DNA of 64,000 nucleotides, taken from Dechloromonas sp. TW-R-39-2 (GTDB lineage: Bacteria; Pseudomonadota; Gammaproteobacteria; Burkholderiales; Rhodocyclaceae). Location: positions 2,077,001-2,141,000 of the forward strand of contig NZ_CP045202.1 of NCBI RefSeq assembly GCF_016864195.1, given 5' to 3'. This document shows positions 9,690-56,312 of this stretch, piece by piece. The stretch's first letter is position 1, and each line of letters starts with the position of its first letter. The position numbers were made by a program, and so were the translations under genes. Under the pieces are notes generated by a model. It did no database searches. It had not been told where the DNA came from and saw nothing but the letters and a program-made list of their open reading frames with translations.

Positions 9690-9723
9690 ATGACTTTTCG
9701 CGTTCTGCTCGTTTGCATGGGCA
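9690..9723 (+). other. attL of element 1
   Basis: These 34 bases match 23208-23241 except at three positions (9707, 9710, 9713), all third codon positions and all synonymous. The likely crossover lies in the last 10 bases, TGCATGGGCA (9714-9723), identical at both ends. The first 17 bases (9690-9706) are also identical. Confidence 0.85.
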
Positions 9724-9743
9724 GCAAAGAAAAAGTCCAGTAA
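9690..9743 (+). pseudogene. Stump of the low-molecular-weight phosphatase gene at the left junction
   Basis: Starting 6 bases after uvrB, with GGAGG upstream, the frame encodes the first 11 residues of the phosphatase found intact at 23208 (MTFRVLLVCMG). It then diverges and stops after 17 codons. This is the host's original start cut off from its body by element 1. The catalytic Cys is present but nothing after the loop start. Confidence 0.9.
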
Positions 9744-9833
9744 ACGCAATGCTTTCCGGTGTTTTGTGTAGCGGTTTGGGTATCGATTTTGCCGTTTGCT
9801 ACATATCCACCGTCTAGTTGCCAGCCAGGATAG

Positions 9834-10232
9834 TTACGGCAGGGCGCTGTCTGCTAAGAAATTGGCGTACTGCAAATCTTCGGCCTTGATGTGGTCCAGA
9901 ATCCACCCCCGGATTGTCTGGACCATTTTTTCGTCTATTTCCTGGCCTGCCTCTATCCCGTCCCAAAGGGCCGCCACATCGTCAGCAATCGCCTTGTGTT
10001 CTGCAATGTGGTTGTCTAGGTGGGGGTAGTTCCACTGCCCGAGTAGCTGTTCCTCAAAGGCGAAATGGAAGCGCGTGTAATCCATTAGTGTGTTGAGTGC
10101 AGTAAACCCCGCGGCGAAGCCGTAAGAACTGCCGATGTAGTCCTGTAGATCATCCAGGCATTTAACCAATTGGGTGTGTTGTTGGTCGATTTCCTCGATA
10201 CCCGTCAGCGGGACAACTACTTGTTCGGTCAT
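9834..10232 (-). CDS. Bacteriohemerythrin
   Basis: This 132-residue single-domain hemerythrin carries all expected di-iron ligands: His19, His56, Glu60, His75, His79, His114 and Asp119 (H, HxxxE, HxxxH and HxxxxD patterns). Such proteins bind O2 reversibly at a di-iron site and serve in oxygen sensing, storage or delivery. The start at 10232 has CGGAG about 9 bases upstream; an upstream in-frame start (10256) lacks this. It is the first gene inside element 1 and points against its right neighbour. Hemerythrins are common in Rhodocyclales genomes, so capture from a host is plausible. Confidence 0.92.
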   Translation of the reverse strand: MTEQVVVPLTGIEEIDQQHTQLVKCLDDLQDYIGSSYGFAAGFTALNTLMDYTRFHFAFEEQLLGQWNYPHLDNHIAEHKAIADDVAALWDGIEAGQEIDEKMVQTIRGWILDHIKAEDLQYANFLADSALP

Positions 10233-10344
10233 TGCATTCACTCCGTAAGGGGACAAATTATAGCGGAGTGCGGCTATTACTTTTGTCAGTATTCCAATTG
10301 GATTTTAGGCCGGCGAAAATGCAGCCAATTCATAGGGAGTTGGA

Positions 10345-10752
10345 ATGATGGGAAAAGAATGCAAGCGATGCGGTTATGTGCGCACCGCGGGGGATAATGC
10401 GCCGGAGTACGAATGCCCTAAGTGCGGCATCGTTTACGCAAAGGTTGAGGACGCGACGCGTAAAGAGCCCGAAATGCCGGAGGCTTGGCGTACCGAGGAT
10501 GCCCCTCGCATGGTTGCGGATACCGACGTTTACCGCCCATCAAGTCCGGCTAGCGTTGTTGCCCCCGCGTCTGTTCGTATCGTGGATATCGACATGAAGT
10601 TTTGGTCGATGGTCTGGTTCATGGTCAAGTGGGCTATAGCGACCATTCCGGCCGTTATCATTTTGATCTTCGTTGGCTTCATGGTCTTTGGGTTTGTTGG
10701 CGGACTTAGTGGCTCCACGCATACCCCTAAGAGCTTCCCCAGGACGTACTAG
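10345..10752 (+). CDS. Zinc-ribbon protein with a C-terminal membrane segment
   Basis: The 135-residue protein starts with two Cys pairs (KECKRCGY, then YECPKCGIVY) typical of a small zinc ribbon. A linker of about 55 residues follows, then a long hydrophobic stretch (about 88-122) that can form one or two membrane helices. GGGAG is placed for either ATG 10345 or ATG 10348. No function can be assigned. It lies 92 bases after an HTH-free stretch and 164 bases before the HslV-like gene on the same strand, so the two could be expressed together. Confidence 0.7.
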   Translation: MMGKECKRCGYVRTAGDNAPEYECPKCGIVYAKVEDATRKEPEMPEAWRTEDAPRMVADTDVYRPSSPASVVAPASVRIVDIDMKFWSMVWFMVKWAIATIPAVIILIFVGFMVFGFVGGLSGSTHTPKSFPRTY

Positions 10753-10916
10753 TCGCCTGTTGTGGCAATCTATCGCCTGGGGGCGCAACGTCCTGGGATG
10801 GATTGCAAGTGGTGCGGGTTGTTTAAGGCAGTGTAAAAGTATGACGGAATGAATGGACATAGGACAATGTAATCCGATATCATGCGCGGCCTTTTGCAAG
10901 GAGGAGCAGTGTTTCG

Positions 10917-11708
10917 ATGACTACCAATGTATATGACAAGGATCAGGCATGTCTTGCGTCTGATTCTAGGTGGTCGGCGATTTCCTCTTGCGGAAATTAC
11001 ATGCTTTTCACTGATGATGCATATTTTGACAAAATATGCGTGTCCGATGAAATGGGGGTTGCATTCGCTTTCACCGGCGATGCGGACCTAGTAGATCAAT
11101 TTAAAACGTGGTTGGTGCTAGATGCCCCCAAAGGTGTGCCACACCCAGATATCCCCGAACGGGCTAGATTCACGTTCTTTACTGTGGATTTGTCCAACGG
11201 ACTTGTGGAAGGTCTTCACTTTCCGGATGAGTTTCCCCCGTTGATTGTTGGTTCGGGGTCAAAACAGTGCGGAGATGATATTGATGCCTTGTTTGCCGGG
11301 AGTGGCTCAAGCTCAGCGCACCAGTGCTGGATGGCTTATCTAGACCCCATGCTTGCAATTCAAGCTGCAATGGATAATGATTCACGTACAGGAGGCAAGA
11401 CTATCACTACTTGCCTTCGCAGCAGGACGCACAATTCAGAGACAGGGACGATTGAAGGCTTGCTTCAAGCCCTGCTAAAAGGAAATGTAATGGAAAAGAT
11501 AGAGACTACTTACTCCAATCAGCGCCCGCTTAGCGAGGTTCGCAGCATTCCTGAAGTCGCTGAGTTGGTTCGTGGCATCTCGAACGGATCAGTTGTCGCC
11601 TCTGCACCTTTTCCGGGAATGGGTGAAGCTATTTTTTCCGCTCAGAAATTGCAAGAAACAAGCGCTTATCTAAATAAACTTCAAGCACGAGTGTTTAAAA
11701 AAAGCTGA
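10917..11708 (+). CDS. Proteasome/HslV-like Ntn-hydrolase
   Basis: The N-terminus resembles HslV and other proteasome beta-type proteins: MTTNVYDKDQACLASDSRW aligns with the HslV start (MTTIVS...AGDGQAT). Removing Met would expose Thr1, with ASDS as the catalytic-Asp segment and FDKI as the catalytic-Lys segment. GVAFAFTGDADLVDQF and LIVGSGS match the FAGGTADAF and IGSGG segments of HslV. That pattern suggests a self-contained threonine peptidase or amidase. The roughly 90 C-terminal residues have no recognised match, and no HslU-like ATPase is nearby. GGAGG lies upstream at a rather long spacing. The low-GC look suggests recent transfer. Family assignment is by eye. Confidence 0.6.
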   Translation: MTTNVYDKDQACLASDSRWSAISSCGNYMLFTDDAYFDKICVSDEMGVAFAFTGDADLVDQFKTWLVLDAPKGVPHPDIPERARFTFFTVDLSNGLVEGLHFPDEFPPLIVGSGSKQCGDDIDALFAGSGSSSAHQCWMAYLDPMLAIQAAMDNDSRTGGKTITTCLRSRTHNSETGTIEGLLQALLKGNVMEKIETTYSNQRPLSEVRSIPEVAELVRGISNGSVVASAPFPGMGEAIFSAQKLQETSAYLNKLQARVFKKS

Positions 11709-11723
11709 TTTGTTTTGAAATCT

Positions 11724-11753
11724 AAAAAGGCTCCCGAATAGAGGAGCTTTTTT
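11724..11753 (+). terminator. Terminator between the HslV-like gene and the minus-strand phage operon
   Basis: GCTCC and GGAGC form a short stem flanked by A5 and T6. It can serve the HslV-like gene and also the convergent operon ending at 11787. Confidence 0.65.
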
Positions 11754-11786
11754 ATTGGGCTTTTCCATGATCCCATCGTTTTATTT

Positions 11787-11999
11787 TCAGATAATTTCTA
11801 CCGCGGTCAGGTGTCCGTTACCCTGCCAAAAGTTGTCATAGGCATCCACGGACGACGCAAACACGGCGGCATTGACGGTTGGGCCGGATGCCAGAATGCG
11901 CCCCGAAGCATCTAGCACGGCCAGGGTTAGCGGGCGGCCATCCTTAGAGAGCAGGCTTAACCCTTCATCGACCTTGGCGCGGACGATTACGTTATCCAT
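11787..11999 (-). CDS. Small phage-element protein, unknown
   Basis: A 70-residue protein starting MDNVIVRAKVDEGLSLLSKD. No family is recognised. The start at 11999 overlaps the end of the upstream 66-residue gene by 8 bases, the coupling expected in a phage operon; a longer open frame to 12065 has no support. It is the last gene of the minus-strand run. Confidence 0.55.
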   Translation of the reverse strand: MDNVIVRAKVDEGLSLLSKDGRPLTLAVLDASGRILASGPTVNAAVFASSVDAYDNFWQGNGHLTAVEII

Positions 12000-12192
12000 G
12001 GTGCGCCCCCTGGGTCTGGTAAATGCGGTCGGCGATGGCGCCGATTTCAGCGGTGCGCAGTGCATCCTCTAGTGCCGGTATGGTCGAGTAGCGCAGTCTG
12101 CAGTTTGCACCATGAATTGCGGCGTCCTGTTCGATTGCCGCGGCCAGGGTGGTGCGGGCTTCGGTTATTTTCTGGGTGTTTCCGATAATCAT
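11992..12192 (-). CDS. Small phage-element protein, unknown
   Basis: A 66-residue protein (MIIGNTQKITEART...) with a good Shine-Dalgarno (GGGAGGAAAAC) before the ATG. It is mostly helical by composition and has no recognised family. It overlaps the following 70-residue gene, so the two are probably translated together. Confidence 0.55.
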   Translation of the reverse strand: MIIGNTQKITEARTTLAAAIEQDAAIHGANCRLRYSTIPALEDALRTAEIGAIADRIYQTQGAHHG

Positions 12193-12324
12193 TTGTTTTC
12201 CTCCCGTGTTTTGGTTCGGAGCGGAGATTAAGGGGCGCCGGATATATCCGCCAAATAATAATTTTTCATATGACTTGGTAGAAATACCCGGTATTTATTC
12301 TTATCTAAACTCTTTTAGTAAAAA

Positions 12325-12651
12325 CTAAATAGTTTGGCTTTTCCCGGAGTTGGCTAAACCCTGCAGCTTAAATAGGGTCAATAATTCGGGCGTGCCTTCC
12401 GCCGTACCCTCTGGATATGCGGTTTTCAGCCCTTCGGCGATGTAATCCGAAATCAGCGATAAATCGGGGAGGGTGACGCTGTGCGCTGTGTGGTTTAGTC
12501 GAATCTGATTTAGCGAACGGTAAATTCCCTCGATAATTATTTTTTCCGGCGTGTCTCCGGTCGTGAAGGTTTTTCGGTCGCGTTCGATGGTGTGCAGCAT
12601 CCCATCAACCAAAAACAGGATGTGCGCCGCGGTGAATTTGGCCTTTTCCAT
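12325..12651 (-). CDS. Hypothetical protein directly after the tape measure gene
   Basis: A 108-residue soluble protein (MEKAKFTAAHILFLVDGM...). The start is two bases after the tape measure stop, indicating cotranslation. In tailed phages this position usually holds a minor tail protein, but no sequence similarity to one is visible. The 132 bases between this gene and the next hold only an AT-rich spacer. Confidence 0.6.
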   Translation of the reverse strand: MEKAKFTAAHILFLVDGMLHTIERDRKTFTTGDTPEKIIIEGIYRSLNQIRLNHTAHSVTLPDLSLISDYIAEGLKTAYPEGTAEGTPELLTLFKLQGLANSGKSQTI

Positions 12652-12653
12652 GG

Positions 12654-15600
12654 TTAGTACGCCCTCCCGGAATCAGCTTCAAGCTGCCGGAGAATGCCCG
12701 TAAGCGCAGCGGCGTCCCTGGTTGTTGCCATGTTCACCGCCTGAGTCTTGCCGCCGATGGTGATGTGCACCGGCTGGGCCTTCGCCTCATTGCCCGCGTT
12801 TTTGATTGCCGCGGTCTGTACTTGGACGCCATCCACGCCCGAGTGATATCCGATTTTTGCGAGCGCCTGGGCCTGCAGATCGCTAACCGATGTGCCAAGG
12901 TCCACCGCCTTGCCGGTCTGCAGTTCAGAGCGCGCCAGTTCAAGCGCCTGCTCGATAGCCTGGTTGCTCGCCATGTTCGTCATGGCCGTCGCGTTGGAGG
13001 CGTTCCCGAGATTGCCGGTAAGCATGGTGGCCGAATTGCGCTGATACAGTTCGCCGTAATACTTCTGTGCGGCCCTGACTTCCTCAATCGTGGCGCCTTT
13101 CTTGTACATAAGGGCGGCTACATCCACGCTCTTGTCCGCCTGGTGGCCGCCGTCAAGGAAGCTGCCGGAGCTTTTCGGGTCGGAATATTTGTTGGCCTCG
13201 TACTTGTCCAAATCGCTCATTGCGGCAACGGCCTGGCCTGCCGCTTCGGCTACACCCTGCAGCGATGCTATGAGGACTTCGTGGCTCCCCACAGCATTGC
13301 GAGAGGCGCCAGCCGCGGTGTTGGTTACGGCGGCCAGATCGCGGGCGCGCTTCGCCAGTTCGGCGGAGATATCCGCTTCCACTTTCTTGACCTTGGCGGC
13401 GGCTTCCTGGGCCTTGAGTTCAGCTTCCTTGGCCGCCGTGAGTTGGCCGGAGGCTTGTAGTTCGGCACGCTTGGCGGCAACGGTCAGCATGGCCGCCTCG
13501 GCTTCGGCGCGCTTGGCCTGGGCCGTCAATTCGGCAAGTTTGATTTCGAGGCGCTTGATTTCGAGCAGTGCGGCGCTGGCCGCGTACTCGTCGCCACGCG
13601 CTCGGGCTACTTGATAAATGGTTTGCTGCTGCTGGATAGCCAGGCTAATGCCCGCCTGGTCGACCTTGAATTGCGACTGCTTGGCCGTCGCGTTTTGCTC
13701 TACCGCCTTGGTTTGGTCGTTCAGTGCGTCCCGGTAGAGGTATGCGGCTTCGCCGGCTGCGATTGCGGCGGCCTGTTCGTCGGCCAGGGTGGCGATACCC
13801 ATTTCCCGCGATAGCTTGACGTTCTCAAGGGTCGCGGCGGTTGCCTCATAAGCTGTTTTGAGTTCGGTCACGCGGCCGGAGTTATCAGTAATCGCCGCGG
13901 CTTCGGTTGCCAGTTGTGCGGCGTGCTGTTGAGAGGCGAGGGCGGCGGCCGCTGCCTGGTCGGCTTCGGATTGCTTCGCGGTCGCACTGTCCTGGGCGGC
14001 CTGTATGGCTTTCAGCTTGGCCTCGCTTACCTTTTCTTCGGCTTTGGCAGCTTCGGACAAGGCGGCAACGTTACTTGCTGCCGTTTCGGATTCGATACGG
14101 CGGGCGGCGGCTACGGCCTGCAATGCGGCGGTGTTGGCCTTCGCAACGTTAAGCGCGGTTTCGCGCTTCTCGGTTTCAGTGCCGAACGCCTGCGCCAAGT
14201 CCAGGGCGGCTTTGCCTTCCGCTTCCTTGGCTGCTGCGTTTTTCTCTGCCAGCTTTGTCGACTGTTCGGCCGCCGTGGTCACTTTGCTATATGCATTGAC
14301 CACGGCGAGCCATGAAACCGCCTGGCTATCTGCGCTCTTGCTGGCCTGCTGCCCACTGTCCGCAAGTTTGGCTTGAGCTACTGCCGTTTTGTCGGCGGCG
14401 CCGCGTGCTGCGTCCAGCTTCTTTTGGATATCGTCGCCTGCTTGGCTTACTGCTTCCTTCCAGCGATTGACCGAGTCAATCGGGTGTTTCCAATCAAACG
14501 ATGCAATGGCGCCGAACGTGATACCGATTATTTTGCCGAGAAGATCGAAGGCGCCCGTAAGGCCGCGCACTGCAAAGCCAAGTTGAGTTAATGCCGCCAC
14601 TAGGAAGGTAACGACGCCCGAATCACCGAGAAATTCCATGGTTTCGGTGATTGCGTTTTTCAGCCTTGCCCATGACGACGTAAGGCCGTCCACCTGGGTG
14701 TCGGTGCCGTACAGCTTTTGCAAACCCTCGGTCATTTTCGGGAGCAGGTCGCTGGCGAGTACCTGGCCGGTGCCGATCATCTGCACAAGCTCGTCCACTG
14801 TCACGCCTACCGCGTCCGCCGTTGCTTGCATGGCGCCGGGCAGTCGCTCGCCCAATTGTTGCCGCATTTCTTCCATGCTGACGACGCCCTTAGACATCAT
14901 CTGTGAAACGGCCTGCAGTGCGCCCTCTGTTTCGGCTGACGACTTCCCGAGTTTCGACATTGCACCGGCTACGGCCTCAAAAATCGCCCGTGTTTGGGCG
15001 CCTTCCATGGTCGTGCCTTTGGCGGCGGCGGTCAGGCCGATATATGCCCGGCCGGCTTCCTGTACATCGATCCCCAGCCGGTTAGATGCGCTCTTGAGGT
15101 ATTCGATTTCCTTGGCGGCGGCCGTGGCGCTGCCGGTCATCAATTCCAGGGTACGCCGGAGGGATTCGGCGCCCGTGTTGGCCTTGAGAAATTGATCCAC
15201 GCCGAAAGCTGCGGCCAGGGGTGCCACCAAGCCGCGGATAGATCGCGCCATGCCGGAGAATGCGCCCTCGGTTTTCTTTCCCGCTTCCTGGGCCGAATCG
15301 GCGGTTTTAACCATGGCCGCTTTCAGGCGTTCGGCCTCGGCTACGGCGTCTGCTGTGGCTGCTTTCAGCCGGGAGAATTCCGGCGCGGTTGCTGCGACTG
15401 CTGCGCGGGCCGAATCGTATCCGGCCTTAGTGTCTCGCACCGCCTGGTTGAGTTTGGCAAGCTGGGCCGTCTGCTCTGCCGTTGCGGCTTTGGTGCCGCC
15501 GATAGCTGCCGTGTAGCTGGAAACCGCGGCGCGGGCCTCCAGGGCGCTTTGTTTGGCCGCCTGCAGGCCGATAGCCGCGTCCCGTGCTGTTTTGGCCTGC

Positions 15601-15779
15601 TGACCTTCCGCGGTGGTCGCTTCCTCAAGCCTTCGGGCCATCTGCTCGAATTCGGGGGAAGTGCCGCCGGCTGTTGTGCCTAATTTGCGAATTTCTGCCG
15701 CCAGGGCATTAACGCTTTCAGCACCTTGCGTCTGCGCGTTAAGGGTTAATGTTACGGTCCTGGAATTATTGCCAGCCAT
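12654..15779 (-). CDS. Phage tail tape measure protein
   Basis: The tape measure protein sets tail length in long-tailed phages and is ejected with DNA. The 1041 residues show a helical N-terminal part rich in Ala, Lys and Glu (1-180), the conserved tape-measure core (about 190-380: TGAESLRRTLELMTGSA, LGIDVQEAGRAYIGLTAAAKG, VSMEEMRQQLGERLPGAMQ), a hydrophobic segment (about 385-425), and a very long Ala-rich coiled coil to about residue 800. It is by far the largest structural gene in the element and the only tail gene recognised with confidence. If tail length follows the usual rule of about 1.5 angstrom per residue, it would specify a tail of roughly 150 nm. Confidence 0.92.
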   Translation of the reverse strand: MAGNNSRTVTLTLNAQTQGAESVNALAAEIRKLGTTAGGTSPEFEQMARRLEEATTAEGQQAKTARDAAIGLQAAKQSALEARAAVSSYTAAIGGTKAATAEQTAQLAKLNQAVRDTKAGYDSARAAVAATAPEFSRLKAATADAVAEAERLKAAMVKTADSAQEAGKKTEGAFSGMARSIRGLVAPLAAAFGVDQFLKANTGAESLRRTLELMTGSATAAAKEIEYLKSASNRLGIDVQEAGRAYIGLTAAAKGTTMEGAQTRAIFEAVAGAMSKLGKSSAETEGALQAVSQMMSKGVVSMEEMRQQLGERLPGAMQATADAVGVTVDELVQMIGTGQVLASDLLPKMTEGLQKLYGTDTQVDGLTSSWARLKNAITETMEFLGDSGVVTFLVAALTQLGFAVRGLTGAFDLLGKIIGITFGAIASFDWKHPIDSVNRWKEAVSQAGDDIQKKLDAARGAADKTAVAQAKLADSGQQASKSADSQAVSWLAVVNAYSKVTTAAEQSTKLAEKNAAAKEAEGKAALDLAQAFGTETEKRETALNVAKANTAALQAVAAARRIESETAASNVAALSEAAKAEEKVSEAKLKAIQAAQDSATAKQSEADQAAAAALASQQHAAQLATEAAAITDNSGRVTELKTAYEATAATLENVKLSREMGIATLADEQAAAIAAGEAAYLYRDALNDQTKAVEQNATAKQSQFKVDQAGISLAIQQQQTIYQVARARGDEYAASAALLEIKRLEIKLAELTAQAKRAEAEAAMLTVAAKRAELQASGQLTAAKEAELKAQEAAAKVKKVEADISAELAKRARDLAAVTNTAAGASRNAVGSHEVLIASLQGVAEAAGQAVAAMSDLDKYEANKYSDPKSSGSFLDGGHQADKSVDVAALMYKKGATIEEVRAAQKYYGELYQRNSATMLTGNLGNASNATAMTNMASNQAIEQALELARSELQTGKAVDLGTSVSDLQAQALAKIGYHSGVDGVQVQTAAIKNAGNEAKAQPVHITIGGKTQAVNMATTRDAAALTGILRQLEADSGRAY

Positions 15780-15789
15780 TTTTGGTACC

Positions 15790-16029
15790 TCAATTTAGGT
15801 TCAGGATTTCTTCTTCCGTGTAGAGGTTCCGATAGACCTCAATCCACAGCGTCCGGGTGTCGAAAAGCTCAGTGCACAAGCAACGGCAAACCGCTTCTCG
15901 CAGGTCGAATTCGGATATCTCGCCTGGGAATTCACGGGCCGCCATTGCAGCGAAGCGGCGGGAAAGGCTGATGATTTTTTGTTGCTCTTCCCGTGCTCGC
16001 TTTTTGAAGGTGGTTAGATCGTTGTTCAT
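15790..16029 (-). CDS. Small protein before the tape measure gene
   Basis: A 79-residue protein (MNNDLTTFKKRAREEQQKI...) with a charged helical N-terminus. By position just upstream of the tape measure gene it could be a tail assembly chaperone, but no slippery sequence for the usual frameshift is visible. It stops 10 bases before the tape measure start. Function unknown. Confidence 0.6.
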   Translation of the reverse strand: MNNDLTTFKKRAREEQQKIISLSRRFAAMAAREFPGEISEFDLREAVCRCLCTELFDTRTLWIEVYRNLYTEEEILNLN

Positions 16030-16067
16030 TGCTGCTAATCCGTTGGTTTTCGCGCCCTAGCTGCCGG

Positions 16068-16289
16068 CTAGCTGTAGGTAAGCGAGTTTCTGTCCGCCCA
16101 TGCATGGACGAAATTGGAATCCCCGTTGGCGAACTTTTCAGTGACGCCCCCGGCCAGCAAAAACTCGATTCGCTTGATACGCCAAACGGGTTCGTGATCT
16201 TCGGCGCCTGGGTCGGCTTCGCCGTGATAGCAGATGGTTTCGCTAACCAAATCACCCTTGAGGATGTTTTGCAGGCTCGTATCACTCAT
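16068..16289 (-). CDS. Small phage-element protein, unknown
   Basis: A 73-residue acidic protein (MSDTSLQNILKGDLVSET...). Its start overlaps the end of the preceding gene by 8 bases. No family is recognised; Trp-rich patches (PVWRIKRIEFLL, FVHAWADR) suggest a folded domain. Confidence 0.55.
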   Translation of the reverse strand: MSDTSLQNILKGDLVSETICYHGEADPGAEDHEPVWRIKRIEFLLAGGVTEKFANGDSNFVHAWADRNSLTYS

Positions 16290-16521
16290 TGCGACCGCCG
16301 TTGCTCGCCTTAATGGCGTTCAAAGTTTTCCGCCAAGCCGCGCATAACTTGACCTTCGGGAATTCCTGAATTTGCAGGTCCGAACATTGGACGGCCGCTT
16401 TTAGCGTTCTCGGGTCTTGCTGGTCGCGCATGTGTTCGGTTACACGGTCGGCGGCCTTCATAACCTTGGGGCTGGCGAGGGTGCGGGAAATGGTTTCCTG
16501 CAGGTCGGTTGCCTTAGTCAT
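16282..16521 (-). CDS. Small phage-element protein, unknown
   Basis: A 79-residue protein (MTKATDLQETISRTLASP...), helical and basic at its end. The ATG at 16521 overlaps the stop of the Mor-like gene (ATGACTAA) and follows GGGGGCC; the longer frame to 16656 lies inside that gene and is not supported. No family is recognised. Confidence 0.55.
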   Translation of the reverse strand: MTKATDLQETISRTLASPKVMKAADRVTEHMRDQQDPRTLKAAVQCSDLQIQEFPKVKLCAAWRKTLNAIKASNGGRNE

Positions 16522-16942
16522 GGTGGCCCCCTTCGCTTTCAGTGATTTCCTCGACCTGCAGTGTGTCCGCCAGGTCTGTGAAACCTTCAAGGCGGAGTTC
16601 TGCGCGGATCGCCTTAACGCTGCGCGGCGCAGCACCAACCAAGTGCGCGATATCATGCACCGGCACCCCGCGGTTACTCAGGCGATAGATAATTCCAGCG
16701 CGCCGGAGTGCGGACAGGTCCACTTCCGGGACTTCCAGATATTCGCCACCAAAGGCGTCCACCAGCCGGTTGAAATCGTGTTCCCCGACCAGTTTTTTAA
16801 GCAGGTGCTCCGGTTTCGCCGTGGTCGGGATATAGACACGCTGCCCGGCCTTGCCGAAAAAGCCGCACATAGCCATGGTGCCGGGCAGGCCGATTACGTC
16901 ACAAATGCGGCTGGCGGTCTTGAAGTTGGTTTTAATTGCCAT
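16514..16942 (-). CDS. Mor/C-family transcription activator-like protein
   Basis: The 142 residues show the plan of Mu Mor-type activators: GQRVYIPTTAKPEHLLKKLVGEHDFNRLVDAFGGEYLEVP, then a C-terminal helix-turn-helix (RGVPVHDIAHLVGAAPRSVKAIRAEL). Mor-type proteins activate phage middle or late promoters. The start at 16942 follows GAGGTGG at good spacing; an upstream in-frame start at 17113 would overlap the previous gene. It is unusual to find it in the middle of the operon it might control. Confidence 0.7.
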   Translation of the reverse strand: MAIKTNFKTASRICDVIGLPGTMAMCGFFGKAGQRVYIPTTAKPEHLLKKLVGEHDFNRLVDAFGGEYLEVPEVDLSALRRAGIIYRLSNRGVPVHDIAHLVGAAPRSVKAIRAELRLEGFTDLADTLQVEEITESEGGHHD

Positions 16943-16952
16943 CGCTGCCACC

Positions 16953-17444
16953 TCAAACCAGCTCGCACTCGATAGCGATATCCAACGGCACGCCGATGTA
17001 TGCCGCCCCCGAAACGTCGGCCCGTTGCGGCTCGGTACCGATAACGGTCTGCTCTTCGAGTTCGATCGAATAACGCTCGCGCTTGAGGTCGGCGAGCTTG
17101 GCTTCCTTCTCACTCACGGGCATGCGTTCCGGTGCGCCTTCCATCTGGGAAACCTGGGCAACGGCTACCCCGACGATGTGGTCCACGCCCAGCGCGGCGA
17201 GGGCCAGGCCGATAGCGAAATCAGTCTTTCCGGCCGGTGTTTCGGGGGTAAGGTAGGTAAAGCTCCCGGAGGTCAGCGAGTCGACAGAGTTTTCGATCAA
17301 TGCCGACATAGGGCGCGCCATGATTTCGAGGTGCTGCCGAAGTTCGGCTTCGAGTTCGTCGAGAGGCGGGCGGGTAGCGTTAACGCGTTTGATCTCAGCC
17401 GTCAGTTCGGAAACTTTGGCGCGGATTTTTTGAAGATTTTTCAT
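16953..17444 (-). CDS. Coiled-coil phage-element protein, unknown
   Basis: A 163-residue protein with an N-terminal coiled coil (MKNLQKIRAKVSELTAEIKR), a hydrophobic Ala/Gly-rich middle (IGLALAALGVDHIVGVAVAQV) and an acidic tail. The start at 17444 follows AGGGAA and begins 17 bases after the stop of the upstream gene; the longer frame to 17510 would overlap it. No family is recognised. Confidence 0.55.
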   Translation of the reverse strand: MKNLQKIRAKVSELTAEIKRVNATRPPLDELEAELRQHLEIMARPMSALIENSVDSLTSGSFTYLTPETPAGKTDFAIGLALAALGVDHIVGVAVAQVSQMEGAPERMPVSEKEAKLADLKRERYSIELEEQTVIGTEPQRADVSGAAYIGVPLDIAIECELV

Positions 17445-17460
17445 GGTCGTTTCCCTGGGG

Positions 17461-17886
17461 TTAATTGAAATTGCCGTAGCGGATATTTCCGGTGGCGCGT
17501 TGATAGGCAAACAAGGCGCGCTCTTTCAGTGCCCTGGCGTCTTTTGCCTTCTCGAGTGCCTCGTTCTGGCGGGTTTTTGCTTCGGCTATTTGCGCGGAGT
17601 GGGCTTCAATCACAGCATCAAGGCCGGAGATCATGGTTTCGATCTGGGCGTTGAATACATCCGGGTAGACTTTCTCGGATACGCTGCCGCGGGGGATGGG
17701 GGTGGCGGCTAACTCCTTACGCCGATCCTGTAGTTTCTGCAGTGCCATCGAGGGGCCGAATACCTCGGTTTGATAAATCACTTCGGCGGCGGCTGTGAAG
17801 GTGCTGACGACGGATTCGAGGCGGAGCATTTTTGCCTCTGCAGTGATTTGCCAGTCACTCTTGCGGAATTTATCGATATTGCTCAT
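17461..17886 (-). CDS. Helical phage-element protein, unknown
   Basis: A 141-residue, strongly helical protein (MSNIDKFRKSDWQITAEAKMLRL...) with heptad-like Ala/Glu/Leu patterning in its second half. AAGGAGCCC precedes the start. It begins the gene run that leads to the tape measure gene, 122 bases downstream of the terminase-like gene. No family is recognised. Confidence 0.55.
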   Translation of the reverse strand: MSNIDKFRKSDWQITAEAKMLRLESVVSTFTAAAEVIYQTEVFGPSMALQKLQDRRKELAATPIPRGSVSEKVYPDVFNAQIETMISGLDAVIEAHSAQIAEAKTRQNEALEKAKDARALKERALFAYQRATGNIRYGNFN

Positions 17887-18008
17887 TTCTAGGGCTCCTT
17901 GTTTTGAATGGATGCCCCTAATTTATTCGCAATATTCTCACCCCGATACCTAGCGCCATTTCCCTATTTGACCGTGGTCTGATAGGGAAATGGCGTAATG
18001 CAATGTGG

Positions 18009-18500
18009 TTATTCTGTCGCGGTTTCGTGCGCCCGTTTCATGTCTGAATAGAGCGTGTCGAGTATGTTTGTCACGATGTTTTCTACCGTTTCGACTTGAT
18101 CTGACGACAGGCCGCATTTGCGTTCTAGGTTGTCGGGAAGGCTCAAAATCGCCTGTGCGCATGTCGCGTATGCGGTGGCCGTCGCGTTCTTGTAGGCGTC
18201 GCGCAGCATGTACTCGCCGGTACGGATATGTAGTTGCTGCTCTTTCAGCTTGGCGTCTGCCAGGTTCTTCCGGTCAGCGGGGGAGAGGGTCGCCGGGTCG
18301 AGGTCGGCGCCTCGCCGGGAGAACATAGCGCGCAGGGCGTCGCGTAGGGCGTAGGCGGGATATCCGCCTCGTCTGCTTGACGGTTGAATGCCGGCACGTT
18401 CGATTGTGCTGCGCACCGTGTCCCGGTCAATGTCCAGCAATTGAGACAAGCCGCGGATAGACATGGCCGGCAGTTCACTAAAGGTCGTTGAGTTGTTCAT
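18009..18500 (-). CDS. Terminase small subunit-like (Nu1/DUF1441-type) protein
   Basis: The 163 residues start with a helix-turn-helix (MSIRGLSQLLDIDRDTVRSTIERAG), then AYALRDALRAMF, then LDPATLSPADRKNLADAKLKEQQLHIRTGEY, and a helical C-terminus. That order (HTH, 'L..P..RK..A...E', GE..) is typical of Nu1-like small terminases annotated as DUF1441. Small terminases recognise phage packaging sites; satellites often carry one to redirect the helper's packaging. No large terminase is found in the element. A plain DNA-binding regulator is the alternative. Confidence 0.55.
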   Translation of the reverse strand: MNNSTTFSELPAMSIRGLSQLLDIDRDTVRSTIERAGIQPSSRRGGYPAYALRDALRAMFSRRGADLDPATLSPADRKNLADAKLKEQQLHIRTGEYMLRDAYKNATATAYATCAQAILSLPDNLERKCGLSSDQVETVENIVTNILDTLYSDMKRAHETATE

Positions 18501-18694
18501 TTTTCGCTTTCAAATATGCAATATGGTTTATAAGGTGTGGTGGCTAGGGGGCCGCAAATTTCTTGGATTCATCGAGCGTCTATGGTCCCGCACGTACTTT
18601 TGCGGCTACAGGAGCCTCCGGTGTTTTTCAAGGGTTTGGTTTGTTGATCGCTGGCTCGCCGGTGCAGTGTTCGAGGGTCGCGCCCCCGCTGTCC

Positions 18695-18721
18695 GGTAAC
18701 GCTGGTAACGCTGGTTACGCT
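18695..18721. repeat. Three 9-bp iterons, left arm of the putative origin
   Basis: Tandem units GGTAACGCT, GGTAACGCT and GGTTACGCT. The third is the exact reverse complement of the unit repeated six times at 18782-18835. Confidence 0.9.
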
Positions 18722-18781
18722 ATGGGGGAGAACTCCAAGCATGACTTTTAACGGTTTATCGTTTTGCTCTCGTCTAGAGTC

Positions 18782-18835
18782 AGCGTAACCAGCGTAACCA
18801 GCGTAACCAGCGTAACCAGCGTAACCAGCGTAACC
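18782..18835. repeat. Six 9-bp iterons, right arm of the putative origin
   Basis: Six perfect head-to-tail copies of AGCGTAACC with no spacers, ending 9 bases before the primase-helicase stop codon. The regular period gives a spurious Val-Thr-Ser open frame on the plus strand. Confidence 0.95.
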
Positions 18836-18843
18836 GCACCAAG

Positions 18844-21477
18844 TCAGCGGTGGGCGTCCTCTTCCTGTTCGGCAATCCGCGTCTCTAGAACGTCGAGTGC
18901 GTCGTTCTCGCTTTCTGCCTTCCTCAACTCTTCGCGTAGCAAATCGTTATCAGCGCCTTGCCACTTCGCTTTATTGCGGACAATGGAAAGCCGAACGGGG
19001 TTAGCATCAACCTTTATCGGTTTGCCGAGTGCGACGATGCCGTACTGTTCCAGGGTCTTGCGGTGCGCCGACGTGAGGCAGCGCTTTGTGTCGTCCACCG
19101 CGTGCCGCTGTTCCAATACCGAGTAGAGGTCAGCCGCCGTAATCAGGTCGCTAGGCCAATACTTGACCAGCGCCTCACATTGCGCGGCCATCGGGGTTTG
19201 GCTCGCCTTCGTCGCTTGCTGCTTCGCCTCGTTGTTCGTTGCATGGGCGCCGGGGTTGAACGTCGATATGTCGCGTTCGCCTAGAAATTTGGCTACGGCC
19301 GCAATAAACAAAGGATTGTTGAGGGCCGCATAGAGCGTGCTGTAATAGGCGGGCGTTTTCGGCTGTCCCTCGGTGACAACAACCTCAATGCGCCGGTCGC
19401 CTTTTTCCATCGGAATCGCGCTCAAATGCTGGCTGAACATGAGCCAGCGACATGCGTTGTATTCGACAGATTGCCGGCCGTACTTCGGGTTAATCAGCCG
19501 TGATTCTTCGGTAATAATGCTTTTCAGCTTCTCGGCGTGCGCCCATTGGGTATCGCGTCCGCCTTCTCGTATCTCGTCGACAATCGCTATTACCTTGCGG
19601 GAAAGGCGGCCATTAAACCCCTTGTCGAACATTTCGACCAGATCGAGGTTTGGCGCCACTGAACCAGCCCACACCCGAGCGAGTACGGACGCAAGCCAGT
19701 TGCGACCCATGCCAAAATTCTTAGCGATATGCAGCCAAGCGGTGTGCGGCAGGATGCCGGGGGATTGTTCAATGTGGGCGAGCCAATCGAGAAAGCGGTC
19801 AGCATCCAGGCCGAACAAAAACCGGATGTGGTCGATAAACAAATTGACCCCGGCCGCCACCGGGTCGGGAACCGCAATAGAGCGGCTGTAGGGCCGCCAC
19901 GAATTAACGGCGGGCCTGCCTTCGGGGTCGAGCAGGATAAGCGGGCCGCCTGCCTTGAACGTTCTGCAAACGGCTGTTTGCCGGCGGGGTGATTCCACCC
20001 ACAAGCGGGCAACCGGGATTTCCTTGTCGGCTACTTTTTCCTTTCGCCCGCCGGCTAGTACCTTGTCAGGCTGGGGGAAGATTTCCTTTGATGCCGCATA
20101 GGTTGATTTCCAATCGCTTAGAGCCATGTCGTAATGCGGGTTGAAAATATCCGCTACCCGCGAACCGTCAGACAGAAAAACGTAGCGGTGCAGGGCGGTT
20201 TCAAGCGAGATAACTTCGGCGGTCGGGATCTTGTGTTCGCCCTCGCCGATTTGTTCGTTTTCCCTCCTTTGGTGTTCGCGGCGGGCGTTCTCCAATGCGT
20301 CGCGCCCTTCGGTGAACTTGGCCTTGTCGATTGCCTTCTGTGCCATGCGTTCGGCTTGCAGATTATTGCGCCGCATGATTTCGGCCTGCTCGTCCGCTTC
20401 TTCCGGTGTCGGTTCAGGCAGTTCCTCAAAGCCTTCGATAGACCAGCCGATTGCGTCCTTGAATTCGCCGTCCGTTCTGTTCATGCAGTGCGCGTGAAGG
20501 CATTTGTAGTGGCCTCTGTCAAATCCGCCGACCCCGGCAGGGTAGTAGCTGGTAGCGGTATCGCCGGTGTCGGTCGTATGGTCGTCGGCGAAAGGGCAGG
20601 TAATGTCCAGGCGCCCCGAGCGGTGATAGTCCAACACAAGGCCGCGGGCCTCTAGGTAGTCGACTAACGGGTCGTTCACGTCGTCCATGCTGCGAGGCTT
20701 AACCGGCGCGATACCTTTGCGAGCTTCTACGCTCGCCTCGGTCCCGAATTTCGCATTCAACAATGCCCACAAGTCCTCGAATTGCTGGTCAGACAATTGC
20801 GGGATATGGTCGGGCAAACCGCCGTCGAATTCATACCGCACGCCTGACGGATGGGTGCCGCAAACAACCGCCTGCTGCCTCCCTGCTAAGAATTCAATAA
20901 CCCCGCCGGCCGTTTTGAAGCGGCGCTTGGTGAAATCACCCGGCATCTTGAACAGGACCAAAAACTTAGATGAATTCGACCGGCGGCGGATAGGTAACGC
21001 CACGCCTAAAAACTTGGCTATATCGATTTCAATATCAATGGCCTCGTCCAAATCCTCAACGTCAACGTCGATCGCACGGACGAGCCTGGTATTTAGGCAA
21101 ATCCCTAGCCGGTCATCCTTGGACCATTTGGCAACATCGCGGGGCGTGGTGTGGTGTTCGGTCCACTTGGCGAAGCCGACCATATGGCCGTCGCGCCGGT
21201 AAGTGCTGGGCAGCTTGCCGGGCTGCTTAATGGTGCTTTCCGGTGCCGGTACGGCGGTCGGGTCTGACACGACCGGGAGTAGGTCGTCTATCAATCCAAG
21301 CGCGCCGAGCTTTTCCCATTCACCGGGAAGGGCGCCGTAGGGGGTGGGGTGAGATTGTCCTGAATAGGAAGCGGCGGCGGTAGCTGGTACCGTTGCATCA
21401 TTCCGTTGGATTTCAATTTCTTCGGCCTCGCTTGCCGGCAAACTGCGAGGTCGAAGCCTTTTTTCGCCCGCGTTCAT
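18844..21477 (-). CDS. Primase-polymerase/helicase replication protein
   Basis: The 877 residues contain an archaeo-eukaryotic-type primase-polymerase domain (about 90-245) with metal-binding DVD at 137-139 and a GTHPSG motif at 207-212. A Cys/His cluster follows (Cys294, His300, Cys326, Cys331), then a charged linker, then a C-terminal DUF5906-like SF3 helicase region. There the P-loop position reads NFGMGRNW (587-594), without the classical Lys-Ser/Thr, while Walker B (VIAIVDEI, 629-636) is intact. Such proteins prime and unwind satellite and phage replicons. The gene overlaps the AlpA-like gene by 4 bases (ATGA) and ends beside the iterons. Confidence 0.82.
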   Translation of the reverse strand: MNAGEKRLRPRSLPASEAEEIEIQRNDATVPATAAASYSGQSHPTPYGALPGEWEKLGALGLIDDLLPVVSDPTAVPAPESTIKQPGKLPSTYRRDGHMVGFAKWTEHHTTPRDVAKWSKDDRLGICLNTRLVRAIDVDVEDLDEAIDIEIDIAKFLGVALPIRRRSNSSKFLVLFKMPGDFTKRRFKTAGGVIEFLAGRQQAVVCGTHPSGVRYEFDGGLPDHIPQLSDQQFEDLWALLNAKFGTEASVEARKGIAPVKPRSMDDVNDPLVDYLEARGLVLDYHRSGRLDITCPFADDHTTDTGDTATSYYPAGVGGFDRGHYKCLHAHCMNRTDGEFKDAIGWSIEGFEELPEPTPEEADEQAEIMRRNNLQAERMAQKAIDKAKFTEGRDALENARREHQRRENEQIGEGEHKIPTAEVISLETALHRYVFLSDGSRVADIFNPHYDMALSDWKSTYAASKEIFPQPDKVLAGGRKEKVADKEIPVARLWVESPRRQTAVCRTFKAGGPLILLDPEGRPAVNSWRPYSRSIAVPDPVAAGVNLFIDHIRFLFGLDADRFLDWLAHIEQSPGILPHTAWLHIAKNFGMGRNWLASVLARVWAGSVAPNLDLVEMFDKGFNGRLSRKVIAIVDEIREGGRDTQWAHAEKLKSIITEESRLINPKYGRQSVEYNACRWLMFSQHLSAIPMEKGDRRIEVVVTEGQPKTPAYYSTLYAALNNPLFIAAVAKFLGERDISTFNPGAHATNNEAKQQATKASQTPMAAQCEALVKYWPSDLITAADLYSVLEQRHAVDDTKRCLTSAHRKTLEQYGIVALGKPIKVDANPVRLSIVRNKAKWQGADNDLLREELRKAESENDALDVLETRIAEQEEDAHR

Positions 21478-21740
21478 TGGACACCCCGACGATTGTAGCG
21501 ACGTGGCACATAGGCGGCGCGGGCGGCCATTTGGTCGATCCAGGCGAGTGCGTCAGCCTTGCGGATATATCGACGGCGGCCAAGTAAAAAGAATTTGGGA
21601 CCGTCCTTCTCGCGGACGAGTTCTTCCCCAGTGGCTTCCGGGATGCCAAGAATCCCGAGCCAAAATTCAGACCAAGAGAGGGCGGGTTTCGCCATCAAAT
21701 CGACGGCTGAAGGTAGGGGGTGGTGTAGTGCGTCAGACAT
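21474..21740 (-). CDS. AlpA/excisionase-like DNA-binding protein
   Basis: An 88-residue protein with the winged-helix signature of AlpA- or Xis-type regulators (GPKFFLLGRRRYIRKADALAWID). In P4-like elements such proteins regulate the integrase or assist excision. It is coupled to the primase-helicase gene by an ATGA overlap and is preceded by the repeated TGTCTGCC sites. Confidence 0.7.
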   Translation of the reverse strand: MSDALHHPLPSAVDLMAKPALSWSEFWLGILGIPEATGEELVREKDGPKFFLLGRRRYIRKADALAWIDQMAARAAYVPRRYNRRGVQ

Positions 21741-21759
21741 TATCGATATTCCTGATAAT

Positions 21760-21816
21760 TGTCTGCCAAGTGGCTAATACGTTGGGCGCAATGGCAGACA
21801 CATTAAAATGTCTGCC
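21760..21816. promoter_or_regulatory. Repeated TGTCTGCC operator-like sites
   Basis: TGTCTGCC occurs at 21760-21767 and 21809-21816, and inverted (GGCAGACA) at 21793-21800. The last two form an 8-bp inverted repeat with an 8-base spacer. They lie just upstream of the alpA-primase operon, in the 327-base gap before the integrase. No repressor gene is obvious in the element. The remainder of the gap (21817-22067) shows no gene. Confidence 0.55.
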
Positions 21817-22067
21817 GGTCCTCTTCGCCACCACCGCCACACCGTTTCCGGGGGGTTTAACTGTTCAACATACCGCCGTCCGGCAGGGGTGCGGGCTTTT
21901 TGAACAGCGCTCGCTGTTGCGAGCGTCTCCACCTACCTACATTCGAGAACCGGGTCGGGAGGGCGCGTTGCCCGGTGGCGTTGAATAATGCAGTGCGAGA
22001 ACTTTAGCAAATAAATTGCAGTTAATGTCGGTAGATATAGTTAAATATTTTCGGCCTGTGCATGCAA

Positions 22068-23102
22068 TTAGCTCCCACTCCCGGCCAGGATGCGCTCAAG
22101 CTCGGTTGACCACTGTTCGGCGGCCGCGATGCGTTCGGCGGCGTAGTCGTGCCGGTTGTAGACAGCCATTACGCCTTGCATCCGATGATTTAGGCACTTC
22201 TCGATAACGTGCGGCGCAATACCAATCCCGGCGAGTCTGGTCGCAAAGGTACGGCGCAAGTCGTGGGGGGTAAATGGTTGTACCTTCTCGCGCTCGCACC
22301 AACGTTTTAGCTTTGACTGAATACTTGTCGGCGATGTGGTCCAGGGTTCTATCTGGCTGCTTGCAAGGGGGGTTAGGTGCACCCAATGCGGATCGCCGTT
22401 TTTGGTGCTATCGAGGTGCCACTTGTCCTGCTCTTGCGTTCCTTTTTGGGCCTCGCTTATCCGTAGTCCGGTCAGCAGCAAAAACCGCATTATCGTTTCG
22501 CCGGAATTCCAAACTGTCCGGATTTCGCTGTCGGATAGCGTCCGATCCCGCGTCTTCTCTTCGCCACCAACTACCCGGCTTGTCGTCCGAGCTAGCGGGT
22601 TGTTGTCCAGGGCGCCAATTTCACAAGCGTAGTCGAGTGCAAGTTTCCAGTTGCTCAGGCATCGATTGGCCGATACGGGAGCGGATTCGGCATATTCCTG
22701 CAGCTTGGATACCATGGCCGAAGTGGTGAGGCGGACTAACTGCGTGTGTCCAAGCCACTGCTTGCCCTTGGCAACGTAGGTTTGAATATTCGCTGTGACT
22801 TTGTAACGCGGCTCAATTCGCAGGTCGTACCACCTATCGAGCAATGCACCAAATGTCATCGCCTCCGGTATATCGTTACCGGACATTTCGAGGGCTTTTT
22901 GCCTTGCCTGTGCAAGCGCCATCGTCGGCCATTGACCCAAAGTGACTACGCGCCATGCACCACCTTTTCTCGTTCGGAATAACCACGATTTCCGTCCGCT
23001 GGTGTAGAGTTTGAGGTAGAGGCCCTGTGTAGCATCATCGCTTAGAAGTTCGTGCTTTTCGGGAGCCTTCAAGGCCCGCAGTGCAGTTTCGGTTAGTTTC
23101 AT
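22068..23102 (-). CDS. int: Tyrosine integrase of element 1
   Basis: This 344-residue P4-type integrase has the N-terminal DUF4102-like arm-binding domain, a core-binding domain and a complete catalytic set: Arg214 (TGLRISEA), His280 and Arg283 (HDLRRTFA), His306 (LNHRMQG) and Tyr315 (AVYNRHDY). It lies 105 bases from attR and points inward, the usual arrangement. It should recombine the element into the start of the phosphatase gene rather than a tRNA gene. Confidence 0.95.
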   Translation of the reverse strand: MKLTETALRALKAPEKHELLSDDATQGLYLKLYTSGRKSWLFRTRKGGAWRVVTLGQWPTMALAQARQKALEMSGNDIPEAMTFGALLDRWYDLRIEPRYKVTANIQTYVAKGKQWLGHTQLVRLTTSAMVSKLQEYAESAPVSANRCLSNWKLALDYACEIGALDNNPLARTTSRVVGGEEKTRDRTLSDSEIRTVWNSGETIMRFLLLTGLRISEAQKGTQEQDKWHLDSTKNGDPHWVHLTPLASSQIEPWTTSPTSIQSKLKRWCEREKVQPFTPHDLRRTFATRLAGIGIAPHVIEKCLNHRMQGVMAVYNRHDYAAERIAAAEQWSTELERILAGSGS

Positions 23103-23207
23103 CTGACGGCAGATTTGTTGTGTAGCAGTCAGTGTATACCTAGCAGAGGATTTACCGAAATTAACCGGACTTTACTGATAATAACTATATGATTTTATGG
23201 AGTAGAC
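23103..23207 (+). promoter_or_regulatory. Element-supplied leader for the regenerated phosphatase gene
   Basis: This AT-rich segment belongs to the element and now provides the ribosome-binding site (TGGAG) and presumably a promoter for the phosphatase gene. GATAAT (23177-23182) is a -10-like box, but no well-spaced -35 box is visible. The integrase promoter must lie here too, on the other strand. Confidence 0.4.
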
Positions 23208-23241
23208 ATGACTTTTCGCGTTCTACTGGTCTGCATGGGCA
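23208..23241 (+). other. attR of element 1
   Basis: Partner of 9690-9723. Its three differences (CTA for CTG, CTG for CTC, GTC for GTT) leave the protein unchanged. The variant codons are probably the element's own attP sequence. Confidence 0.85.
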
Positions 23242-55742: not shown

Positions 55743-55818
55743 GCGGCAGTAGCTCAGTTGGTAGAGCGATACCTTGCCAAGGTATAGGTCGAGAGTTCGA
55801 GACTCTTCTGCCGCTCCA
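55743..55818 (+). tRNA. tRNA-Gly(GCC), copy 1
   Basis: A 76-nt cloverleaf with acceptor GCGGCAG/CTGCCGC, anticodon GCC in CTTGCCAAG, T loop AGTTCGAGA, and encoded CCA. It is identical to the two later copies. Confidence 0.96.
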
Positions 55819-55867
55819 GTTTCACCGGGAAAGCTCGGCTTTTCCAAAGCAGTAAAAGTAGTGCGAA

Positions 55868-55941
55868 GGCGCGATAGCAAAGCGGTTATGCACCGGATTG
55901 CAAATCCGTGTAGGTCGGTTCGACTCCGGCTCGCGCCTCCA
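55868..55941 (+). tRNA. tRNA-Cys(GCA)
   Basis: A 74-nt cloverleaf with acceptor GGCGCGA/TCGCGCC, anticodon GCA in GATTGCAAATC, discriminator T and encoded CCA. Confidence 0.95.
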
Positions 55942-55948
55942 AAAAGAT

Positions 55949-56024
55949 GCGGCAGTAGCTCAGTTGGTAGAGCGATACCTTGCCAAGGTATAGGTCGAGA
56001 GTTCGAGACTCTTCTGCCGCTCCA
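55949..56024 (+). tRNA. tRNA-Gly(GCC), copy 2
   Basis: Identical over 76 nt to copy 1; it begins 7 bases after tRNA-Cys, so the two are processed from one transcript. Confidence 0.96.
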
Positions 56025-56075
56025 AAAATTCAGTAGCATGAATTTTGGTGCAATAAAGTTGTACCGAAAGAATAT

Positions 56076-56151
56076 GCGGCAGTAGCTCAGTTGGTAGAGC
56101 GATACCTTGCCAAGGTATAGGTCGAGAGTTCGAGACTCTTCTGCCGCTCCA
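56076..56151 (+). tRNA. tRNA-Gly(GCC), copy 3
   Basis: Identical to copies 1 and 2. A short AT hairpin (AAAATTCA/TGAATTTT) lies in the spacer before it. A terminator follows 6 bases later. Confidence 0.96.
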
Positions 56152-56157
56152 AATATA

Positions 56158-56191
56158 GAAAAAGGGAAAGCACGCATGCTTTCCCTTTTTC
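56158..56191 (+). terminator. Terminator of the Gly-Cys-Gly-Gly tRNA operon
   Basis: GAAAAAGGGAAAGCA and TGCTTTCCCTTTTTC form a long perfect stem with a four-base loop, ending in T5. Confidence 0.88.
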
Positions 56192-56226
56192 ATATCCCGG
56201 CACCGATCGATATAATCGGCCAGCCA

Positions 56227-56312
56227 GCCCGGATGGTGAAATCGGTAGACACAAGAGACTTAAAATCTCTCGGCTTATGGCTGTGCGGGTTCGATTCCCG
56301 CTCCGGGCACCA
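56227..56312 (+). tRNA. tRNA-Leu(TAA), target site of element 2
   Basis: An 86-nt class II tRNA with acceptor GCCCGGA/TCCGGGC, anticodon TAA in ACTTAAAATCT, a variable arm, T loop GGTTCGATTCC and encoded ACCA end. TATAAT at 56211-56216 gives it its own promoter. Its 3' end (56295-56312) is the left junction of element 2, and the gene is intact. Confidence 0.96.

Follow-up and report, generated by a model that had tools for sequence, protein, structure and literature searches.

A PICI-like element of Dechloromonas with an intact tape measure gene and no recognisable capsid gene: a candidate phage satellite

Introduction

What is an intact tape measure gene doing in a small integrated element that has no recognisable capsid gene? 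The locus that raises this question lies in a stretch of 64,000 nucleotides (the window; positions 2,077,001 to 2,141,000 of contig NZ_CP045202.1) from Dechloromonas sp. TW-R-39-2, whose genome is a single contig of 3.46 Mb. The element in the window has clean ends, its own integration and replication modules, a small terminase subunit (TerS), a late activator and an intact, selected tape measure protein (TMP), and it has no recognisable gene for a capsid, portal, large terminase subunit (TerL) or tail tube. From this combination we infer a satellite in the sense of an element that is mobilised by a helper phage, uses the products of that helper and places its TMP in tails. We consider it rather probable that this is an intact, site-specifically integrated satellite resembling the phage-inducible chromosomal islands (PICIs), whose TMP replaces that of the helper and gives chimeric tails.

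Results

The element is inserted at the start of a phosphatase gene

The 13.5-kb element (9690-23207) is inserted between uvrB and the gene for a low molecular weight protein-tyrosine-phosphatase (LMW-PTP). It is bounded by 34-bp attachment (att) repeats that are identical at 31 of 34 positions and copy the first 34 bp of the LMW-PTP gene, and no other repeat shared by the two flanks is longer than 12 bp. A preliminary description had placed an element at 9714..23241; there is an element at this place, with its ends corrected to the following repeats.

9690..9723, plus strand: attL, immediately after uvrB, the initial 34 bp of the original LMW-PTP gene (31/34 against 23208-23241)
23208..23241, plus strand: attR, the copy at the LMW-PTP start (from the repeat comparison)

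The empty site was examined in nine relatives, taken as loci from the best of 35 matching genomes. The end of uvrB lies about 20 bp or less from LMW-PTP in four of them (L087, L088, L092 and L095), the gap is about 170 bp or less in two others and about 1 kb in one, and uvrB was not seen in two of the nine. In genome G090, a small integrase-primase element lies a few kb upstream of uvrB (L075:4929-13383), and a 496-aa open reading frame (ORF) in it is 39% identical to the window primase over 438 aa.

The element encodes satellite-like modules and a tape measure protein

The gene order was read leftward from the right end, with the integrase first and the cargo last. The principal features are listed below; L028, L029 and L031 are relatives described in the next section.

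22068..23102, minus strand: tyrosine integrase, 344 aa (PF00589, PF13356)
21474..21740, minus strand: AlpA-like helix-turn-helix regulator (HTH_17 at 21.7 bits, below the curated 27; 49% over 78 aa to L031)
18844..21477, minus strand: primase-helicase (DUF5906), 877 aa (phrog_1156, E 2.6e-36; PF19263 (DUF5906), 48.6 bits)
18695..18835, no strand: iteron origin, three inverted and six direct 9-bp units around a 59-bp spacer, 56% AT
18009..18500, minus strand: TerS (DUF1441; PF07278, 83 bits; phrog_141, E 1.4e-27)
16953..17510, minus strand: conserved all-helical protein, start probably at 17444 (alignment of 12; AF2 pLDDT 84.6)
16514..16942, minus strand: Mor-like late transcriptional activator (phrog_836 'late transcriptional activator', E 3.7e-16; conserved in L028, L029 and L031)
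16068..16289, minus strand: C-terminal domain of a collagen-like virion protein (45-49% identity; full collagen form in L029 and L031)
12654..15779, minus strand: TMP, 1041 aa, intact (PF20155, 103 bits; phrog_2335, E 1.9e-46; TIGR02675, 63 bits)

Pfam and PHROG matches and the repeat units bear out the integrase, alpA-like gene, primase-helicase, iterons, TerS-like gene, Mor-like gene and in-frame 1041-residue TMP of the preliminary description, the AlpA-like match being below cut-off. The six tandem units of the iteron origin occupy 18781-18835 and the three inverted units 18695-18721; the repeated word occurs in seven copies, against a maximum of five in letter shuffles.

The reported lack of recognisable capsid, portal, large terminase and lysis genes also held. 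We compared 67 other ORFs of at least 60 aa (ATG, GTG or TTG start) in 9690-23241 with PHROGs at E<=0.01. They matched nine families, namely TerS (two families), the late activator, an HslV-type peptidase, phrog_118 and four without an assigned function, and capsid, portal, TerL, tail-tube and lysis families were absent from these matches. None of these ORFs had a PHROG match to a tail assembly chaperone (TAC), and a 79-aa protein encoded upstream of the TMP has no assignment. The lack of a recognised TAC need not be a defect, because in two phage-context loci tmp follows the presumed tube gene by 69 bp (L201) and 23 bp (L204) with no gene between.

Three relatives share the layout and the missing genes

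A contig scan with an alignment of 26 listed TMP proteins, the window's own included, gave 10 loci. The order primase, 16953-type gene, Mor, TMP is common to the window and to L028, L029 and L031, whose sources are Azonexaceae, Betaproteobacteria HGW-6 and Dechloromonas metagenome-assembled genomes. The window primase is 50-54% identical overall to the primases of these three loci, and the window TMP is 57% identical to their TMPs. For the gene of the 17461 type, BLAST gives a match in L031, and L028 and L029 have a counterpart by position.

The integration modules vary. L028:2211-15579 and L031:1009-14877 encode serine recombinases and have one insertion site in common, a radical-SAM gene whose 3' part is present at both ends of the element; the recombinase of L029 is a tyrosine integrase. 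The terminal repeats are 120 bp in L028 and 102 bp in L031, both imperfect, and 17 bp in L029. Inverted repeated words follow the primase in all three, with six copies each, and those of L031 share words with the window iterons. In the shuffle control, six copies in L028 stood against a maximum of four, and in L029 and L031 six equalled the highest of 200 letter shuffles; no repeated words beyond shuffles were found in L197, L203 and L213.

A further 38 ORFs of L028, L029 and L031, a set made up after the recombinase, primase, TMP and collagen genes and the opposite-strand ORF L028:9172-9594 had been set aside, matched 13 PHROG families, eight of them without a description. Head, portal, TerL and tail families had no match in these 38 ORFs. 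The shared absence of these genes across such divergence of TMP and primase is hard to square with independent recent deletions. The same gene order with the same genes missing in other hosts had been proposed as a check of the satellite interpretation, and L028, L029 and L031 are three such cases; together with the att repeats and the intact frames, this shared layout supports that interpretation.

The tape measure protein is conserved as a protein

The TMP is encoded by a single open frame (12654-15779). Identity to L028, L029 and L031 at codon positions 1, 2 and 3 is.64-.66,.73-.74 and.40-.42 (L028.64,.73 and.40), and the primase has the same pattern, with position 2 above position 1 and both far above position 3. 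This pattern shows selection on the TMP and primase proteins, and the TMP is under purifying selection.

A protein search that admitted only proteins 0.55-1.75 times the query length scored 8000 candidates, of which 574 were matches at E<=0.001. Identity is 52-63% for the first 32 TMP relatives (P0002-P0033), and 29 of the 32 align over at least 81% of the query. The window TMP belongs to a clade of 16 distinct sequences with support 1.0, made up of four loci and 12 proteins without known context (P0006, P0009 and P0013 are identical to L031, L028 and L029 and were counted once each). All phage-context TMPs that were placed (L038, which is P0020, L040, L041, L201, L202, L204, L205 and others) fall outside this clade, also in a tree with more such TMPs. 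Of 50,697 records of known phages, 1019 have a match to the TMP; identity is below 60% in every case, and no match extends over 80% of the protein.

A helper could supply the remaining parts

The proposed chimeric-tail mechanism is plausible and has a published precedent. Infection by a tailed helper would switch the element on through its AlpA-like and Mor-like regulators, and the element would then excise and replicate from its iterons. Its TerS would steer the large terminase of the helper to satellite DNA. The satellite TMP would replace the helper TMP as the scaffold on which the helper tube protein polymerises, and satellite DNA would leave in helper capsids on chimeric tails, with the tail length and the ejected inner protein set by the satellite.

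The host genome (G000) holds a siphophage prophage (L077 and L084; about G000:C1:1917000-1947000) that is complete by its gene list read by eye. This prophage was rejected as the obvious tail donor: its TMP match covers only 56 aa (E 0.008), TerS has no BLAST match there and two 15-bp words are shared. It could serve as a capsid donor. In its gene list, capsid and protease are fused, and a portal-like gene comes after the gene for the large tail protein. The C-terminal segment of the window TMP is, by eye, like those of phage-context TMPs such as L201 and unlike that of the own-genome prophage, which points to a helper of the L201 kind. A search of 14 genomes with the presumed tube gene of L201, a query without a Pfam match that is called a tube gene by its position, found it in three, namely G504, the control G308 and, as a weak match, the L031 genome G783. 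A superinfecting helper, as for the PLE and PICMI satellites compared below, seems likelier than a resident one, because the host genome gave no L201-type tube gene in this search.

Several observations weigh against the satellite with chimeric tails. Among the 14 genomes searched, the L201-type tube gene was found neither in G000 nor in the genomes of L028, L029 and L032, so that no resident helper was found. TerS was not seen in L028, L029 and L031, so redirection by TerS is not general among these elements. The TMPs of the clade are 992-1064 aa long and overlap those of phages (L201, 1089 aa; L202, 1018 aa), and no consistent change in tail length is therefore predicted. A prediction of tail length from TMP length was rejected on these overlapping ranges.

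The last of these observations is a portal gene in a broken relative in genome G226, which means that related elements can carry a head gene. One contig there has an integrase, an AlpA-like gene, a primase, TerS, a 16953-type gene and Mor; beyond Mor, close to the start of the contig, lies a portal gene (PF05136, E 2e-97). The end of a second contig encodes 320 C-terminal TMP residues, after which come a 91-aa ORF and pilus-type genes of the host, and no large tail gene was seen after this partial TMP. The two contigs probably hold one element. No att repeat was found for it, and a search of G226 for the L213-type capsid protein, run without a control, found none.

Alternative explanations for the tape measure gene

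The TMP may instead be a weapon: expressed late, it would bind tube or tip proteins of the helper and block the assembly of helper tails, to the benefit of the satellite or as a protection for the host population. Defences borne by satellites and prophages are known to act on tail assembly, among them Tai (PMC11364771) and Rta (PMC12987554), and the phage-like C-terminal segment of the TMP could compete for the tip. However, the near-constant full length of 992-1064 aa is more than a decoy needs, although the search admitted proteins of 0.55-1.75 times the query. PADLOC also found no defence family in ten element proteins apart from weak matches of the zinc-ribbon-like cargo protein. We regard the weapon as unlikely.

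The element could also be a deletion remnant of a siphophage prophage that has lost its head and tail genes and carries the TMP as an idle leftover. In favour of this, the order primase, Mor, TMP is collinear with prophage L202, L236 has a Mor-like gene, a portal gene (PF05136) and a collagen-domain gene in that order, and the broken G226 element retains its portal. L202 reads primase, TerL-like gene, Mor and, further on, TMP followed by a large tail protein, with several of these genes named by eye. Its primase is 21% identical to the window primase over 366 aa and its TMP lies outside the satellite clade, so that the same segment inside a complete prophage, put forward earlier as a refutation of the satellite, was found module by module only. 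Against a remnant, the same genes are missing in L028, L029 and L031, whose TMPs and primases are 50-57% identical to those of the window, the frames are intact and the codon pattern is purifying. The element is moreover a mosaic, because, of the loci seen other than L028, L029 and L031, prophage L073 has the closest primase (62% over 494 aa); no TMP match was found in its 19.9-kb stretch, which ends inside the prophage, whereas the TMP of the element is of siphophage type. We regard a remnant as improbable.

Ejected TMPs contact envelope proteins of the recipient. An own TMP might serve DNA entry and not tail length, by suiting the recipients of the satellite or by evading TMP-directed immunity. 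This idea fits the overlap of clade and phage TMP lengths, by which a change in length may not be the point, and the evasion of Rta by the TMP of PLE11 (PMC12987554), but it is compatible with the chimeric-tail explanation, differs from it only in the benefit and seems to us very improbable as a separate account.

Tape measure genes occur in other small elements

An alignment of TMPs matched 40 of 395 genomes of the host's family, its own included, with at most two candidates scored per genome among the matches listed, and at E<=1e-30 it matched 10 of 399 genomes of the order, again with its own. Context counts rest on the 14 loci L201-L214 (L215-L220 stand outside the counts; L202 was read on one strand, and L201 is on the same contig as L030). 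By eye, a large presumed tail protein comes after the TMP in seven (L201, L202, L204, L205, L209, L211 and L212) and not in the other seven (L203, L206, L207, L208, L210, L213 and L214). Repeats were found at both ends of L203 (64 bp), L208 (92 bp), L213 (49 bp), L214 (49 bp) and L032 (56 bp, at tRNA-Leu); the ends of L206, L207 and L210 are not closed. L203, L206, L207, L208, L210 and L213 form one TMP clade (support 1.0, or 0.96 with more phage-context TMPs). The TMP of L032 lies within a group that holds the phage-context L038, and that of L214 lies elsewhere in the tree.

Some of these elements have head genes. L208:7232-8449 and L213:7168-8412 are lone major capsid proteins without the protease part present in the own-genome prophage, to whose capsid half they are 53% and 57% identical, and L207 carries another major head protein. 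The capsid gene of L208 and L213 is preceded by a conserved protein of 196-240 aa that may be a scaffold. Among the 25 of 64 families listed for other TMP elements is a 'minor tail' PHROG match, which by BLAST is probably L206:708-2057.

It is about an even chance that an own tape measure is a general and repeatedly evolved satellite strategy. Different replication modules would have been joined separately with siphophage TMPs in Rhodocyclales-type bacteria (the window clade; L203, L206, L207, L208, L210 and L213; L032; L214), and in some a bare major capsid protein (L208, L213, L207) or a portal (G226) would have been added. If so, such satellites would form a graded series in which each brings no more than the components that determine head size or tail length and takes the bulk polymers from its helper.

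Remaining features of the element and the window

The other genes of the element are as follows.

17461..17886, minus strand: uncharacterised protein (23-27% identity in the alignment; homologous by BLAST to a protein of L031, with counterparts by position in L028 and L029)
16282..16656, minus strand: short ORF between Mor and the collagen-domain gene, start probably internal (best PHROG E 0.077)
15790..16029, minus strand: 79-aa protein upstream of the TMP (no PHROG match at 0.1, no Pfam match above cut-off)
12325..12651, minus strand: protein directly downstream of the TMP (no PHROG or Pfam match)
11787..12065, minus strand: small protein downstream of the TMP (45% over 67 aa to L028:14180-14404, also downstream of the TMP there)
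10917..11708, plus strand: HslV-like peptidase family protein, cargo (phrog_1040, E 1.6e-10)
10345..10752, plus strand: zinc-ribbon-like protein with a hydrophobic stretch, cargo (zinc-ribbon matches, all below cut-off)
9834..10256, minus strand: bacteriohemerythrin, accessory cargo at the left end (NF033749, 98 bits; PF01814, 53 bits)

The predicted structure of the helical 16953-17510 protein had no PDB or viral fold match at E<=0.001 in a fold search, and the protein has a weak head-tail adaptor match (phrog_118, E 2.5e-4). A Mor search of viral contigs gave six weak loci. At L236:3730-4737 a full collagen-like virion protein gene lies directly after a portal gene (PF05136), and at L235:1978-2952 a collagen-like virion protein gene also directly follows a portal gene, named by eye. 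An Rfam search gave no match. At 57000-63000 of the window the G+C content falls to 47-52% after five tRNA genes at 55743-56312, possibly marking another island.

Comparison with known satellites

The genes psu, delta and sid are P4-like genes. In a comparison by family name, no PHROG family so named is among the matches of the element. With Gram-negative PICIs as described in PMC6092414 the element shares an integrase, an AlpA-type regulator (here below the Pfam cut-off), a primase with an origin, TerS, a size of about 15 kb (here 13.5 kb) and a specific att site (here 34 bp). That account describes these PICIs by the absence of phage structural genes, whereas the window element has a full TMP and a virion-protein domain. 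We therefore file it only as PICI-like, because the TMP and the collagen-protein domain are present. Capsid-forming PICIs (cf-PICIs) are described as encoding head, portal and both terminase subunits, and some carry a putative tmp (PMC10690885, PMC12987554); the window element has no recognisable capsid, portal or large terminase gene of its own and encodes only TerS.

Phage-inducible chromosomal minimalist islands (PICMIs) share a core of integrase, HTH_17-type AlpA (below cut-off in the window) and DUF5906 primase. By the account in PMC10803314 they integrate at fis and encode no capsid-remodelling genes, whereas the window element lies at the LMW-PTP start and has late genes. The satellite-like AH14b of Pseudomonas sp. 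ANT_H14 (16.8 kb) has an integrase, an AlpA-like regulator, a primase and a homologue of tail assembly protein I, and, unlike in the window element, neither a TMP nor a terminase is identified in its description (PMC4936722). A capsid-protein homologue is known from SaPIbov5 and PmCI172 (PMC6092414, PMC8569155), and the lone major capsid proteins of L208 and L213 are comparable to it; the window element has no such protein.

The closest comparison is with the PICI-like elements (PLEs) of Vibrio cholerae (PLE11, PLE1 and PLE4). A paper of March 2026 reports that PLEs build chimeric tails with their own TMP (PMC12987554). In that report the PLE11 TMP replaces the ICP1 TMP, the tails are about 10 nm shorter and deletion of tmp cuts transfer by about 99.9%; Extended Data Fig. 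10 gives putative tmp genes in PLE-like elements and cf-PICIs. Novelty in principle of a satellite with a tape measure is not supported, since the PLEs precede it. Like the window element, they are integrated and have their own TMP; mobilisation as a satellite, helper capsids and chimeric tails are demonstrated there and proposed here. By their description, PLEs carry a TAC, PLE11 also carries BhuB, and they depend on ICP1, whereas the window element has no recognised TAC or hub and has TerS and a Mor-like activator.

According to the same paper, no satellite before the PLEs was known to build chimeric tails, and it does not settle how general this is. Our literature search, which covered sources other than preprints and most subscription journals, revealed no capsid-less satellite with a TMP in bacteria other than Vibrio. 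The window element appears to be a variant of TMP-bearing satellites that differs from PLEs and hints at a broader, repeatedly evolved class. A capsid-less TMP element with integrase, primase, TerS and Mor-like activator in betaproteobacteria, together with elements from separate TMP lineages, allows the generality of chimeric tails to be tested beyond Vibrio. Such elements would, if their TMP becomes part of particles, be natural experiments on swappable tail components and on TMP roles beyond length, and TMP swapping may be a wider way for satellites to re-tool phage particles.

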